Positions 49,299 through 54,892 of a stretch of DNA of 64,000 nt are shown here, piece after piece (positions within the stretch are counted from its first letter, which is position 1; each line of letters starts with the position of its first letter). Origin of the DNA: a bacterium (GTDB lineage Bacteria > Electryoneota > RPQS01). The stretch lies in the NCBI GenBank assembly GCA_013360195.1, contig JABWCQ010000008.1, positions 62,001 to 126,000 on the forward strand, written 5' to 3'. The notes under the pieces were generated by a model. That model was not told the DNA's origin. It was given only the letters and a program-made list of their open reading frames with translations, and made no database searches. The position numbers and the translations under genes were made by a program.

Positions 49299-50420
49299 AT
49301 GGCCTTGATATTTAACGGCTCTCCGGAACCTACGCTGGGCGTAGAATGTGAACTGCTGCTGATTGACCCGAAAACATGGCAAGCGGTCAACCGTGCCCCC
49401 GAACTGTTGGCTGAACTGGGCGATGTCGGTTGGGCTAAGCCCGAACTCTTGCAATGCATTGTCGAGGTTATTACGACACCGTGCCGCACGGTGGCGGATG
49501 TCAAGCGCGAGCTTGTGGATAAGTTTCGCAAAACCGAAGAGGCCGCCAATAAGCTGGGCATGACCACTGCATTTATGGCGACGCACCCGACGGCGCTATG
49601 GCACGACATGGTGATTACCGACAATCCGCGCTACATGAATCTGGTCAATCGTATGCAATGGCCGGCACGCCGCGCGATGATTATGGGGCTGCATGTGCAT
49701 GTTGGTGTCAAATCGGCGGAAAAGGCGATTGCCATCTTCAACGCGATGACCACTTTTCTCCCGCACCTACTGGCCGTATCGGCGGCGTCGCCGTACTTCA
49801 TGGGCGAGGAAACTGGACTGGCGTCATCGCGCATCAAAGTTTTTGAAGCGATGCCAACCGCAGGGTTGCCGCAGCGTATGCTCAATTGGGCTGAGTTTCA
49901 AAGATTTATGAAGACGCTGATTCATGCCGGAGCGATTCAGTCGATTCAGGAAATTTGGTGGGACGTGCGCCCGCATCCGAAATTCGGAACACTCGAAATT
50001 CGCATCTGCGACGGCACCCCCGATTTGAAGGACGTGCTGGCGCTGGTGGCGCTGGCTCAATGTCTGATATGCTATCTTGAAGACCTGTATGACAACGGCG
50101 AAACGCTGCCGATTCACAAATACTGGTTCATCAAGGAAAACAAGTGGCGCGCCACCCGCTGGGGATTGGACGCGGACATCGTGCACACGGATGACGGAGC
50201 GACACGGCATATGCGTGACGACCTGCACTTTTTGGTCAAGACGTTGACGCCATTCGCCATTCAGCAGAACTGCCTTGAAGAACTGCAGCACATTGTGAAA
50301 ATAACAGACCGGGGCGGAAGCTACGAACGTCAACGCTCGGTCTATCGCAAGACCGAGAACTTCATGGCGGTCACCGAATCCGTTGTCAGCGAGTTTCAGG
50401 AGAGCGTCAGGCAGGCTTGA
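49299..50420 (+). CDS. ybdK: YbdK-type carboxylate-amine ligase (glutamate-cysteine ligase-like)
   Basis: A 373-residue ATP-dependent ligase of the GCS2 (YbdK) family, which joins a carboxylate to an amine. Family features are the N-terminal TLGVECELLLID, where the acidic residues bind Mg-ATP, the histidine-rich MGLHVHVGV, and WWDVRPHPKFGTLEIRICD. It has weak gamma-glutamylcysteine ligase activity in E. coli, but many homologues sit in dedicated clusters and act on unknown substrates. It is the first gene of a five-gene run with a second unrelated ligase, two hydrolases and a transporter. This argues for a specialised amide-forming pathway. Confidence 0.9.
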   Translation: MALIFNGSPEPTLGVECELLLIDPKTWQAVNRAPELLAELGDVGWAKPELLQCIVEVITTPCRTVADVKRELVDKFRKTEEAANKLGMTTAFMATHPTALWHDMVITDNPRYMNLVNRMQWPARRAMIMGLHVHVGVKSAEKAIAIFNAMTTFLPHLLAVSAASPYFMGEETGLASSRIKVFEAMPTAGLPQRMLNWAEFQRFMKTLIHAGAIQSIQEIWWDVRPHPKFGTLEIRICDGTPDLKDVLALVALAQCLICYLEDLYDNGETLPIHKYWFIKENKWRATRWGLDADIVHTDDGATRHMRDDLHFLVKTLTPFAIQQNCLEELQHIVKITDRGGSYERQRSVYRKTENFMAVTESVVSEFQESVRQA

Positions 50421-50459
50421 AGAGCCGGTTCACGTTTCCTGAATGCAGCGAAATCTGTC

Positions 50460-51659
50460 ATGAGTGAAAACAAACTCTCACCCGAAGTCAAACGGCTCGG
50501 CTGGGTGTCGTTTTTCACCGATGTGTCGAGCGAGATGCTCTATGCCGTAACGCCGATTTTCCTGAGTACCGTGCTGGGAGCAAGTGCGGGAATCATCGGC
50601 GTCATCGAAGGAATTGCCGAGGCGACGGCCAGCGTACTCAAGGGATTGAGCGGCTGGTACTCCGACAAGATTCGCAACCGGAAACGTTTTGTCTTTGCGG
50701 GATACGCGCTCTCAGCAATTGCAAAGCCCCTCATCGCCGTTGCCGGTTCATGGGTGTTTGTCCTGTTCGCGCGCTTCCTGGACCGTTTTGGCAAAGGCAT
50801 TCGCGGCAGCGCACGCGACGCGCTGATTGCGGATGTGACCCCCAAAGAGCTGCGGGGGAGAGCCTTCGGGCTGCATCGCGCGATGGACACGGCCGGTGCG
50901 TGGCTGGGTGTGGCGATATCCCTGTGGATTCTGCACACCTACGGCGGCACAGGTAAACTGCAAATCCTCTTGCGCAATCTGTACTGGATAGCGTTTGTCC
51001 CGGCGCTCGTAGGAGTGCTGTTCATCTTCTTCATTCGCGAGCCGAAAAGACGGGAAGACGTGGCACCGAAAGAGCCGGCTGCGCCGCGCACGAGTCTGGG
51101 AAAACGTTACTGGCTGATTGTCGCGGCCGCGAGCATCGGCTATCTCGGCTTCAGCAGCGACGCCTTCTTGATTCTCAAAGCAAAAGACATCGGTCTGTCT
51201 ATCACCAATGTCTTGATTGCCTATCTCGCCTACAACGCGTGCTACACGCTGGCGTCGTATCCCATCGGAAAGCTGTCCGATAAGATGAGAATGGAGTATC
51301 TACTCTGTGCCGGACTCCTGATCTATGCTTTCGTCTATTGGAGCATGGCGTCCGCGGATTCCCGCGCTGCCGTGTTCATCCTGTTCGTCGTTTACGGTCT
51401 GTACGCCGCACTGACGGAAGGCGTCATCCGAGCGCTCATCGCTAATGTCGTCGGCACGGATGTGAAGGCCACGGCGCTGGGAATTTTCAGTATGATTACC
51501 GGAGTGCTTGCGCTGATTGCCAGCCTGCTGGCCGGCTGGCTGTGGGACAACGTTTCCTCCGACGCGCCGTTCTATCTGGGCGCCGTTTTCGCATTCTTGT
51601 CTGCGGTCTGTTTCCTGATTCTCCCGCTTGAGCGCAGGAATCCCGCGACCGCCTCCTGA
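50460..51659 (+). CDS. MFS transporter
   Basis: A 399-residue major-facilitator protein with about twelve hydrophobic segments. The cytoplasmic loop between helices 2 and 3 reads GWYSDKIRNRKRFVFAG, the MFS A-motif equivalent, and RFLDRFGKGIRGSARDALIAD is a strongly conserved block of a subfamily often annotated as drug or metabolite exporter. The start at 50460 is 39 bp after the YbdK gene. In this cluster it most likely exports the product or imports a precursor. The direction cannot be read from sequence. Confidence 0.88.
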   Translation: MSENKLSPEVKRLGWVSFFTDVSSEMLYAVTPIFLSTVLGASAGIIGVIEGIAEATASVLKGLSGWYSDKIRNRKRFVFAGYALSAIAKPLIAVAGSWVFVLFARFLDRFGKGIRGSARDALIADVTPKELRGRAFGLHRAMDTAGAWLGVAISLWILHTYGGTGKLQILLRNLYWIAFVPALVGVLFIFFIREPKRREDVAPKEPAAPRTSLGKRYWLIVAAASIGYLGFSSDAFLILKAKDIGLSITNVLIAYLAYNACYTLASYPIGKLSDKMRMEYLLCAGLLIYAFVYWSMASADSRAAVFILFVVYGLYAALTEGVIRALIANVVGTDVKATALGIFSMITGVLALIASLLAGWLWDNVSSDAPFYLGAVFAFLSAVCFLILPLERRNPATAS

Positions 51660-51690
51660 TTCGTCCATTCACACACTTAAACTTATTCTC

Positions 51691-52428
51691 ATGCAACGCG
51701 AACATCACAAATGGTATAGTCCCGCTCTCGGCCGTGAAATGGAGCTTCTCGTCTTCGGCCACTACGGCCGCCCGCTGCTGGTTTTTCCTTCCGCACAAGG
51801 GCGCTTCTTCGATTATGAATGCAATCATATGATTGAGACCATCCGGCATCACATCGAGGCCGGCGGTGTCAAAGTCTTTTGCGTTGACGGCATCGACTCC
51901 GAGAGCTGGTTCAACAAGGGGCTGCCGCCGCACATGCGCGTCAAGGCGCACGAGTATTATGAGCAATACGTTACTCACGAGGTCTTCCCGTTCATTCACA
52001 AACACTGCGGCTCTCAGAGTATCCGCATCGCCGCGACGGGGTCGAGCTTCGGCGCCTACCACACCATGAATTTCGCGCTGAAATACCCGTGGAACTTCAG
52101 TCATATTTTGTGCCTGTCTGGAAACTATGACATCCGCGAGCGCCTCGAAGGATACTACGACGAAAGTTTCTACTTCAACAATCCGATGGATTACCTGCCG
52201 AATCTCCAAGACCATGAAACTCTGGAGGCGATACGCAGAATCAAAATCGCGCTGGTCGTCGGTCAAGGAGCGTGGGAGGGCAATTGCATCGATCAGACAA
52301 AGCGCCTGTCCGATATCATGAATCAAAAGGGAATCGGCCATCATCTCGACTTATGGGGAACCGACACTCCGCATGACTGGCCCTCGTGGAGACGCATGAT
52401 TTCCGTTTACATTCCACAAATCTCTTAA
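51691..52428 (+). CDS. Alpha/beta-hydrolase, putative esterase
   Basis: A 245-residue cytoplasmic protein (no signal peptide) of the esterase-D-like alpha/beta-hydrolase group. The nucleophile elbow is GSSFG with Ser119, and a C-terminal His is in DTPHDWPSW. The N-terminal HHKWYSPALGREMELLVFG strand layout matches the putative esterase family that includes ferric-enterobactin esterases. The start at 51691 is 31 bp downstream of the MFS gene. It is 5 bp upstream of the ATP-grasp gene, so hydrolase and ligase are probably co-translated. Confidence 0.82.
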   Translation: MQREHHKWYSPALGREMELLVFGHYGRPLLVFPSAQGRFFDYECNHMIETIRHHIEAGGVKVFCVDGIDSESWFNKGLPPHMRVKAHEYYEQYVTHEVFPFIHKHCGSQSIRIAATGSSFGAYHTMNFALKYPWNFSHILCLSGNYDIRERLEGYYDESFYFNNPMDYLPNLQDHETLEAIRRIKIALVVGQGAWEGNCIDQTKRLSDIMNQKGIGHHLDLWGTDTPHDWPSWRRMISVYIPQIS

Positions 52429-52433
52429 TCACG

Positions 52434-53714
52434 ATGAGCACGAAGCAACACGACGACCTTCCGCACACCTTCCGCCGAATCGGCCTGCTGCTGGGCAACG
52501 AATATGCCTGGCCGCTCGCCTACGAAGCGCTGATTGAACGGCTCGGTTCACATCTCAATTATCAGGGCAGACGGTTCGATTTCGAAGTCGAAAGACTGAC
52601 GATTGAACCGTTCAATTTACGTCAGCCTGTACGGCACCACGTCATCATTGACCGCCTCGGCTATTGGCACATGACCGTGCGTGAATGGCTCAAGAAATCC
52701 GCGCTGATGGATGATTCGCACACGGTGAATAATCCGTTCACGTTTCAGTCCATGGAAAAGCATTCGGCGTATTGCGTCATGATTCGGCTCGGCTTCGATA
52801 TTCCCGAGACGTGGCTCGTGCCGCAAAAAGAGTGGGATCCGAAGGATGAACGAGCCCGCGTCACCGCCGAGAACTATCACAAAATGTTTGACCTCGAAAA
52901 GATCGTCGAAGAGGTCGGCGGCTATCCCGTGTTCATGAAGCCTTATGACGGCGGAGGCTGGCGCGGTGTAACACACATCAAGAATCGCGAGGATTTATAC
53001 AAGGCCTACGATGAGTCCGGTCAGCAGACGATGCACATTCAGAAGGGCATCAAGGATTACGAAATCTTCTGCCGTTGCCTGGGCTGCGGGCCGCAAATTC
53101 TGCCGATGCGCTATGACCCCGACCAACCGCTGCACAACCGTTATCGAATCGAGCACGGATTCCTCTCGCCGTTTCAGGGTGACTATGTGGTCAAGTTGAC
53201 GCGCATCATCAACGCATTCTTCGGCTGGGAATACAATTCGTGCGAGTCGCTGTTGCGCGGCAAAAGCATCTTCCCGATTGATTTCGCGAACGCCGTGCCG
53301 GACACGTCGCTCATCTCGCTGCATTACTACTTCCCGTGGGCTATCAAGGCTTTGGTACGCTGGTCGCTCTATTGCGCAGTCACAGAGCGCAAGACGAGAA
53401 TTGACCTGCAGTCACGCGACTACTTCGCCATCGCCGACCGGGATATTCCGTTTCCCGAGAAACTCAATCTCTATCACGATCTCGCGCAGCGATACTTCGA
53501 ATCCGAGCGGTTCGAGGTCTTCTGCGCATCACATCTTGCCCACCTCGACGAACTCACGCTCGAATATTTCTCTTCGGCGGCGTGGGACGCCACGCTGGTC
53601 GAACGCTGCCGCCGTTCGTTCCCCGCGCACGAGCATGAGCAGTTCATCGCCCACTATCGCGGCCTGATTAACTACTGGGTGAAAACCGAGCAGGATAGAC
53701 TCGCCAAGCACTGA
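52434..53714 (+). CDS. ATP-grasp-fold ligase
   Basis: A 426-residue protein with an ATP-grasp core. After an N-terminal domain of about 110 residues, the ATP-binding part shows YPVFMKPYDGGGWRGV, in which Lys169 should contact ATP and GGGWRG forms the flexible loop. The metal ligands are likely Asp283 and Asn286 in FPIDFANAVPD. ATP-grasp enzymes activate a carboxylate as acyl-phosphate and join it to an amine or thiol. No standard family member (such as D-Ala-D-Ala ligase or RimK) matches well. It lies between two alpha/beta-hydrolase genes in the five-gene cluster. Confidence 0.8.
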   Translation: MSTKQHDDLPHTFRRIGLLLGNEYAWPLAYEALIERLGSHLNYQGRRFDFEVERLTIEPFNLRQPVRHHVIIDRLGYWHMTVREWLKKSALMDDSHTVNNPFTFQSMEKHSAYCVMIRLGFDIPETWLVPQKEWDPKDERARVTAENYHKMFDLEKIVEEVGGYPVFMKPYDGGGWRGVTHIKNREDLYKAYDESGQQTMHIQKGIKDYEIFCRCLGCGPQILPMRYDPDQPLHNRYRIEHGFLSPFQGDYVVKLTRIINAFFGWEYNSCESLLRGKSIFPIDFANAVPDTSLISLHYYFPWAIKALVRWSLYCAVTERKTRIDLQSRDYFAIADRDIPFPEKLNLYHDLAQRYFESERFEVFCASHLAHLDELTLEYFSSAAWDATLVERCRRSFPAHEHEQFIAHYRGLINYWVKTEQDRLAKH

Positions 53715-53717
53715 AAC

Positions 53718-54839
53718 ATGCCGGATTCATCTCGCGTTCTGACTTTCCGGCTGCCCGCGGACACTCCGGCGGGCGCCACTATTTTTCTCGCCGCCGACTT
53801 CAACGGCTGGAGCCCGTCACATCCGCTCTCGCGCACCATTCCGCAGGCGGACGGAACACACCGGTTTGTGCTTCCGCCGGATATTGACCGAGCCGAATTC
53901 AAGGTTACGCGCGGTTCGTGGGACAGTGTCGAATGTACTGCGGACGGCCAGCCGACCGGAAATCGCCAATGGAACTCCGGTTCCCATAACGGCGACTTGC
54001 ACATTGAAGTGGGCGGTTGGTGTGATTTGCATCCCGGCACTGTGTCGTGGCGTCCTCGACATACGATTACCGGAGATGTGCGCGTCATTCATGATGTTTT
54101 CTCTCCGCAGCTCGGGAATATGCGGGACATTCTTGTGCTGCTCCCGCCCGGGTACGACGACAGAACAAGTGAGCGCTACCCTGTCATGTACATGCACGAC
54201 GGACAAAACCTGTTTGACGATGTGTCCGCCTATGACAAGGAATGGGGAATTGACGAGATCTCACTCGAGCTTGCGGAAAAGGAACATCTGCGCCATATCG
54301 TTGTCGGGATTCCCAACATGGGTCTTTCACGGCTGCACGAGTACTCGCCGTGGGAAGACGATTTCCGCCGTTCGCGCGGCCTCGGTGAGCGTTACGTGCG
54401 GTTCGTCCTGCAAACGATTAAGCCGCATATCGACGCTCAATTCCGAACGAAACCGGGACGCGAATTCACCGCTGTCGCCGGCTCGTCACTCGGCGGATTG
54501 ATTTCGCTCTATGCAGGCATGACACGCCCGGACAAATTCTCGTTCGCCGCCTGTCTCAGCCCGAGTCTGAATGTCGCAGGCGGGCGGATCATGAAGATTG
54601 CGCAGGCCTTTCACGGTGACACGCGCTTCTGGATTGACTACGGCATGCACGAATTCGGCGGTGAACGCGGACTCTCCGCTCAGATGATTGAAGCCGTGCA
54701 GGAGTGCGGACGGCTGCTGAAATCAAATGGTGTGGACGCGCGAATCGTGATTGACCCTGAAGGCGAGCACAATGAGTCTTCATGGCGAAGGCGTTTTCCA
54801 GACGTGTTGCGCTGGTGGCACAACTACCTGCCCAAATAA
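53718..54839 (+). CDS. Esterase with N-terminal CBM48-like domain
   Basis: A 373-residue protein. Residues 1-100 look like a CBM48/isoamylase-N-like Ig domain (AADFNGWSPSHPLSR, and later GSHNGDLHIEVGG). Residues 115-373 form an esterase-D/Fes-like alpha/beta-hydrolase with nucleophile Ser257 in GSSLGGLIS and a C-terminal His in DPEGEHNESSW. This two-domain arrangement is that of enterobactin-esterase-like and trehalose-mycolyl-like enzymes, which cut or transfer ester-linked groups. No signal peptide is visible, so it acts in the cytoplasm. It begins 3 bp after the ATP-grasp gene and ends the cluster at a terminator. Confidence 0.85.
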   Translation: MPDSSRVLTFRLPADTPAGATIFLAADFNGWSPSHPLSRTIPQADGTHRFVLPPDIDRAEFKVTRGSWDSVECTADGQPTGNRQWNSGSHNGDLHIEVGGWCDLHPGTVSWRPRHTITGDVRVIHDVFSPQLGNMRDILVLLPPGYDDRTSERYPVMYMHDGQNLFDDVSAYDKEWGIDEISLELAEKEHLRHIVVGIPNMGLSRLHEYSPWEDDFRRSRGLGERYVRFVLQTIKPHIDAQFRTKPGREFTAVAGSSLGGLISLYAGMTRPDKFSFAACLSPSLNVAGGRIMKIAQAFHGDTRFWIDYGMHEFGGERGLSAQMIEAVQECGRLLKSNGVDARIVIDPEGEHNESSWRRRFPDVLRWWHNYLPK

Positions 54840-54845
54840 CAAAAA

Positions 54846-54872
54846 AAAGCCCGGCTCGAAAAGCCGGGCTTT
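54846..54872. terminator. Bidirectional terminator
   Basis: AAAGCCCGGCT (54846-54856) and AGCCGGGCTTT (54862-54872) pair perfectly with a 5-nt loop. A-rich sequence precedes and T-rich sequence follows, so it serves both the plus-strand cluster and the minus-strand peptidase gene. Confidence 0.92.
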
Positions 54873-54892
54873 CAATTTCAGCCGGTCAATTA

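Follow-up and report, generated by a model that had tools for sequence, protein, structure and literature searches.

A five-gene operon was characterized in a 64,000-nucleotide stretch of DNA from a bacterium of the phylum Electryoneota (the window; contig JABWCQ010000008.1, positions 62,001 to 126,000), and part of it was found to recur in a second phylum. The operon encodes a YbdK-type carboxylate-amine ligase (GCS2), a major facilitator superfamily (MFS) transporter, an esterase-D-like hydrolase (EST1), an ATP-grasp ligase and a second esterase (EST2). EST1 and the ATP-grasp ligase, together with an EST2-type esterase, form a solid core common to the window's phylum and Myxococcota, with a GCS2-type ligase in part of the loci. 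The grouping is beyond chance, being conserved both in relatives and in the second phylum. On balance, though with confidence only slightly above even, we favour a function for the operon as a cytoplasmic amide-ligase pathway, distinct from non-ribosomal peptide synthetases (NRPS), whose product would be a small conjugate of glutamyl- or peptide-like type; the esterases would trim or transfer acyl groups.

A pattern scan of genome contigs, made with patterns drawn from too close an alignment, returned two loci, one of which (L010) was from Myxococcota. In 379 Myxococcota genomes, where neighbourhoods of up to 20 kb were mapped with profiles built from the loci, the ATP-grasp family was found in 120, in about 100 of them near full length at E 1e-100 or better. 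The counts given below rest on 98 loci with a strong ATP-grasp match, and the adjacency counts on those loci with room for a neighbour. In 58 of 90 loci the gene directly downstream of the ATP-grasp, in the same orientation, was EST1; an EST2-type esterase lay directly upstream in 54 of 91, and both esterases were present in 53 of the 98. The original prediction was to be given up if no conserved neighbourhood existed outside the source genome, and these adjacencies speak against that outcome. The exact five-gene set did not recur across phyla, what recurred being the EST1-ATP-grasp core, an EST2-type esterase and, partially, GCS2. Gene order was swapped between the phyla (EST1-ATP-grasp-EST2 in the window versus EST2-ATP-grasp-EST1 in Myxococcota), and thus the linkage of esterase and ATP-grasp genes has outlasted rearrangement.

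Further ligases and hydrolases accompanied the core. An L-amino-acid-ligase-like ATP-grasp (BCATP), related most closely to L-amino acid ligases (4wd3 at 1.8e-31, besides BL00235 and BacD), was present in 67 of the 98 loci and an S51-like peptidase in 63, while N-formylglutamate-amidohydrolase-like (FGase) and AstE/AspA-like genes were found in 15 and 9 loci, respectively. One long gene order, FGase-GlgA-BCATP-S51-EST2-ATP-grasp-EST1-GCS2CBS by Pfam identities, was seen in L075, L117 and L128, and another long order, GlgA-BCATP-S51-EST2-ATP-grasp-EST1-GCS2CBS-AstE, in L066, L074 and L126. GCS2-bearing neighbourhoods numbered 19, against approximately 0.5 expected in 98 random 20-kb windows, a rough figure that assumes 1.5 GCS2 genes per genome and ignores kinship. 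As a peptide or amide pathway predicts, ligases and esterases recurred together in the second phylum with extra amide ligases and amide/N-acyl hydrolases. Because the core, which recurs in about one quarter of the sampled Myxococcota genomes, usually sits among other peptide-type ligases and hydrolases, it probably makes a small amide- or peptide-like compound.

A divergent version of the ATP-grasp (approximately 310-350 aa) adjoined a YbdK-type GCS2 gene in ten Myxococcota loci (L150-L158 and L161). A circularly permuted ATP-grasp-like protein was encoded between the two in L150-L154, with fragments in L155, and a class-I GATase lay next to the divergent ATP-grasp in L156 and L157. The models of circularly permuted ATP-grasps (PF14403/PF04174) gave a weak match beside the divergent branch, e.g. 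in L150, and none among the window proteins. In L158 and L161, the divergent ATP-grasp and GCS2 occurred with EST1 and a protein of approximately 430 aa. In three genomes (G044, G089 and G099), a YbdK-type GCS2 gene was located about 5-7 kb from a locus with EST2-S51 and BCATP-BCATP, and ATP-grasp-EST1-BCATP was located on a separate contig. The ATP-grasp family was present in 29 of the 43 Myxococcota genomes with a YbdK-type GCS2 versus 91 of the 336 without one, uncorrected for kinship. From the divergent-branch loci, these three genomes and the co-occurrence across genomes, it follows that the ATP-grasp family came to be paired with GCS2, or stayed so, in several contexts.

In the window's own phylum, 39 genomes were searched. 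The ATP-grasp was found in four, all of one family, and the distribution of EST1 was identical. YbdK-grade GCS2 (>200 bits) was likewise found in these four, the remaining GCS2 matches in the phylum being weaker and of other types. Co-occurrence of GCS2, EST1 and ATP-grasp gave Fisher values of 1.2e-5 phylum-wide and 0.003 inside the family, but because the four genomes are related the true support is weaker than these values. One related genome (G028) carried the complete five-gene set; a second (G029) carried GCS2-EST1-ATP-grasp-EST2, and in a third (G030) the tail of a GCS2 gene lay just before EST1 at a contig edge. The S51-like and BCATP partners gave no match in the phylum at the threshold used, in searches that lacked a positive control genome.

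The MFS protein (PF07690, MFS_1, 1.4e-44) was predicted to move the product of the pathway. Its gene was kept in G028, but G029 and G030, two of the three related genomes that carry the cluster, have no MFS gene separating GCS2 from EST1. The MFS gene is therefore an addition at the genus level, outside the core; a core exporter is ruled out, and export is at best lineage-specific.

The ATP-grasp protein is predicted to belong to the superfamily by its Lys strand, glycine loop, metal-binding acids and a weak profile match. Dala_Dala_lig_C (PF07478) matched at 4.7e-5 and 23.4 bits, just below the 24-bit cut-off, and profiles of D-Ala-D-Ala ligase and biotin carboxylase matched weakly over the Lys strand. 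Similarity to RimK/LysX profiles was weak, and the RimK model TIGR00768 scored the relatives at 24-35 bits (cut-off 143.4). By hhalign, E. coli DdlB aligned over the Lys-strand region only (50% probability) and RimK at 10%. The operon ATP-grasp is thus distantly like RimK/LysX and D-Ala-D-Ala ligase in its Lys strand, glycine loop and acid spacing, but lies far below their cut-offs, carries D-x-x-N in place of E-x-N and has a large C-terminal extension. Its catalytic motifs are intact. Residues kept throughout the family, the divergent branch included, comprise Lys169-Pro, the GG loop, Glu271 and Asp283-x-x-Asn286-x-x-Pro-Asp290, and all but one of 100 full-length sequences carry the motif D[FY]AN[AP]. 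The spacing of Glu271 and Asp283 presumably fits the two metal acids of ATP-grasp enzymes, with the Asn displaced by one position, towards the C-terminus, from where the usual E-x-N has it. A comparable motif shift, ExGD, is described in another ATP-grasp clade (PMC4431377). The protein has no model of its own in Pfam, NCBIfam or PADLOC, and tblastn of a plasmid collection gave no match. In the tree, the ATP-grasps of the window's phylum formed one supported group, on a long stem, beside all the Myxococcota groups, a placement that does not suggest recent transfer.

GCS2 is a clear member of the YbdK family by sequence and motif. It matched PF04107 at 1e-61 and passed TIGR02050 (YbdK) with 304.9 bits (cut-off 176.4) and the glutamate-cysteine ligase model NF010043 with 437.6 bits (cut-off 409), and the closest solved structures were those of YbdK (1r8g and 1tt4). 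The G-x-E-x-E metal/ATP motif described for GCS2-type ligases (PMC2588565) reads GVECE. Family membership is what suggests gamma-glutamyl chemistry; relative to E. coli YbdK, the operon GCS2 differs by its setting in a multi-enzyme operon.

Both hydrolases proved to be members of the esterase family, as predicted (PF00756, 3.4e-13 for EST1 and 1.4e-29 for EST2), and neither has an obvious signal peptide. The catalytic residues of EST1, Ser119 (in GxSxG), Glu196 and His228, were invariant among 27 relatives; no specific model for it was found in Pfam, NCBIfam or PADLOC. Between the two phyla EST1 was approximately 30% identical and the ATP-grasp approximately 46%, and both look orthologous. EST2 carries the GxSxG and His motifs, and its closest structure was a carbohydrate esterase family 1 (CE1) enzyme with an N-terminal carbohydrate-binding module (CBM; 7b5v, 2.5e-11). 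The N-terminus had been called CBM48-like, to which the architecture of 7b5v lends only indirect support; the alignment, however, spans the esterase part only and excludes the N-terminus, and no Pfam CBM model matched EST2. EST2 thus shares with Fes and with CE1 feruloyl esterases bearing an N-terminal CBM an E-set-like plus esterase architecture and the GxSxG and His motifs, but falls below their cut-offs and lacks a siderophore or polysaccharide-degradation context.

We infer the substrates, the order of steps, the roles of the esterases, the product and its export as follows. The YbdK-type GCS2 would activate a glutamate-like carboxylate with ATP and couple it to an amine. The ATP-grasp ligase, distantly like RimK and D-Ala-D-Ala ligase, would then form a second amide (or ester) bond via an acyl-phosphate. 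EST1, and probably EST2, would trim, proof-read or transfer an acyl or ester group of the product, which in the window's genus may be moved by the MFS protein. Because the EST1-ATP-grasp core of Myxococcota joins other ligases (GCS2-CBS and BCATP) and amide hydrolases, the core probably makes one shared scaffold, which the various lineages would decorate with amino-acid-like groups of their own. In a wider and more tentative proposal, to which we give somewhat less than even weight, a new ATP-grasp family (D-x-x-N-x-x-P-D) and a dedicated cytoplasmic esterase would constitute a widespread non-NRPS pathway of Myxococcota and the window's phylum, yielding a class of peptide- or ester-like metabolites. 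Lineages would keep this core and exchange the amide ligases that go with it, be they GCS2 of the YbdK type, GCS2-CBS, or ATP-grasps that are circularly permuted or L-amino-acid-ligase-like.

Several observations weigh against the amide-ligase pathway. Neither esterase was found in 17 of the 98 Myxococcota loci, GCS2-CBS stood near a full-length ATP-grasp gene in only 19, and 28 encoded a glycogen synthase (GlgA), which falls outside a plain dipeptide pathway. The operon EST2 was only 26% identical to that of L010 and may be a non-orthologous member of the same esterase family. AlphaFold prediction of the ATP-grasp from three sequences gave a pLDDT (predicted local distance difference test) of 39 and no reliable model. 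The two phyla in which the family was seen are those whose genomes were searched.

The main rival is a glutathione-like thiol pathway, in which GCS2 would make gamma-glutamylcysteine, the ATP-grasp would replace glutathione synthetase and the esterases would cleave S-acyl adducts in the manner of S-formylglutathione hydrolase (esterase D). We consider it unlikely. The passing of NF010043 by GCS2 would fit such a route, as would the gamma-glutamyl:cysteine ligase activity reported for YbdK (Lehmann 2004, cited in PMC2588565) and the lack of a strong GshB in the source genome, where a single 32-bit match to PF02955 lies on another contig. The operon ATP-grasp, however, failed the GshB and glutathione synthase models, and the Myxococcota partners (BCATP, FGase, AstE, S51 and GlgA) are unfit for glutathione. 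None of the five operon proteins, to which the search was confined, matched the mycothiol or bacillithiol models (MshA-D, BshA-C), and the EgtA (ergothioneine) model gave 19.2 bits (cut-off 370.8). The absence of matches to known thiol and siderophore routes held for the ergothioneine, siderophore and GshB models but has to be qualified for GCS2, given its matches to YbdK and to one glutamate-cysteine ligase model.

A further and weaker alternative, which we regard as improbable, is an amino-acid-decorated polymer, perhaps linked to glycogen or glucan, to which the ligases would add amino acids and from which CE1-like esterases with an E-set/CBM-like domain would remove or transfer ester groups. 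GlgA lies inside the Myxococcota operons (508 bits to the GlgA model), the nearest relatives of EST2 are CE1 esterases with N-terminal CBMs, and the S51-like peptidase is distantly cyanophycinase-like; yet most loci, like the window cluster, have no GlgA, and the missing CBM match and signal peptides likewise argue against this polymer. Still less probable is a siderophore-type pathway with EST2 as an enterochelin esterase and the MFS protein as a siderophore exporter. The enterochelin esterase model NF007758 scored L010 EST2 at 111.8 bits and operon EST2 at 28.9 bits, far below the cut-off of 222, and the weak match of the MFS protein to siderophore exporters is generic (39 versus a cut-off of 525 for MxcK); the operon also has no siderophore synthetase, and the MFS gene is not conserved. 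That the genes are neighbours by chance or lineage inheritance, with no shared function, is the least probable explanation. The four own-phylum genomes do share one family and the MFS gene is variable, but this explanation is largely refuted by the cross-phylum linkage, the same core occurring in another gene order across a deep tree and the ATP-grasp family being repeatedly paired with GCS2 ligases.

Linked GCS2 and ATP-grasp ligases are already known as a prediction, and the YbdK family is known. Operons in which ATP-grasp ligases are linked with COOH-NH2 (GCS2) peptide ligases have been predicted, reportedly in a 2009 survey by Iyer and colleagues. The present operon resembles these in its combination of unrelated ATP-dependent ligases with hydrolases and its inferred successive amide ligations, and probably differs in the esterase-ATP-grasp-esterase core and in this ATP-grasp family. 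Where unrelated ATP-dependent peptide ligases are linked, they have been proposed to act in successive ligation steps (PMC4431377), and GCS2-like ligases are treated in PMC2588565. The literature search found no description of the module or of its ATP-grasp family; an earlier mention is possible in the 2009 survey, which lay outside the texts covered. Dipeptide-forming L-amino acid ligases (RizA-type 4wd3, BL00235 and BacD) are related to the Myxococcota BCATP partners and were not matched in the window's phylum. If the amide-ligase reading is right, the compact and testable gene set marks an amide-bond pathway that is common in a phylum prized for its natural products, and the ATP-grasps would gain a family whose metal-binding motif is unusual. 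The module would also place YbdK-type GCS2 ligases in a biological context.

The source genome is 3.2 Mb and 96% complete. The five genes, their order and strand, and their intergenic gaps of 39, 31, 5 and 3 bp were exactly as predicted, by the listing of open reading frames (ORFs) and Pfam.

Features of the operon region, in window coordinates
Feature	Position	Strand	Basis
YbdK-type GCS2 carboxylate-amine ligase, 373 aa	49299..50420	+	PF04107 and YbdK family models
MFS transporter, 399 aa, accessory	50460..51659	+	PF07690
EST1, esterase-D-like serine hydrolase, 245 aa from ATG	51691..52428	+	PF00756
ATP-grasp ligase, no assigned family, 426 aa from ATG	52434..53714	+	weak PF07478
EST2, N-terminal E-set-like region and CE1/esterase-D-like hydrolase, 373 aa	53718..54839	+	PF00756
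Inverted repeat, likely bidirectional terminator	54845..54873	.	13-pair stem on minus, 6-pair form on plus

An alternative TTG start of EST1 gives a longer ORF that would overlap the MFS gene. The closing terminator of the original prediction corresponds to the inverted repeat, the strongest terminator-like site, although its best score is for the convergent minus-strand S9 peptidase gene; it is plausibly a bidirectional terminator common to both. Terminator-like sites in the region showed no excess over shuffled sequence. Because the gaps are only 3-39 bp, there is no room for a graspetide precursor gene inside the operon, the flanks not having been searched for tiny ORFs. None of the five proteins matched PADLOC anti-phage defence models, and NCBIfam left the ATP-grasp, EST1 and EST2 without a family assignment.

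Among the Myxococcota partners, the S51-like protein (L010:5900-6823, alignment A4) fell under the Pfam cut-off, had no PDB relative at E 0.1 and may represent a new peptidase-S51-like family. A full GlgA gene was embedded in the ligase operons of L066, L074, L075, L117 and L128, and three conserved genes (c65, c63 and c64), of which c63, the one compared with Pfam, had no match, followed AstE in L073 (14069-18002), L074 and L126. Clusters of conserved antisense ORFs in high-GC loci were set aside as spurious. The conserved protein of approximately 430 aa (L158:2816-4111; L161:8507-9757) had no Pfam match and is encoded between the ATP-grasp/EST1 pair and the YbdK-type GCS2; its C-terminal part, VLKPLFSYAGSGV, resembles a further ATP-grasp. 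The Myxococcota YbdK-type GCS2 closest to that of the operon (G260, L202:5588-14622) has M20 peptidase genes on one side and a MoxR-type AAA ATPase/VWA pair on the other, neighbours that rule it out as a module locus. An EmrB-type MFS adjoining YbdK in L205 and L207 was also rejected, being only distantly related to the operon's MFS and not conserved in L208 and L212. In the window's phylum, a GCS2-CBS gene adjoined an AstE/aspartoacylase-like gene, with no ATP-grasp or esterases, in genome G019 of family f5 (L169:3818-6641), possibly a separate pair arranged as in the Myxococcota operons.

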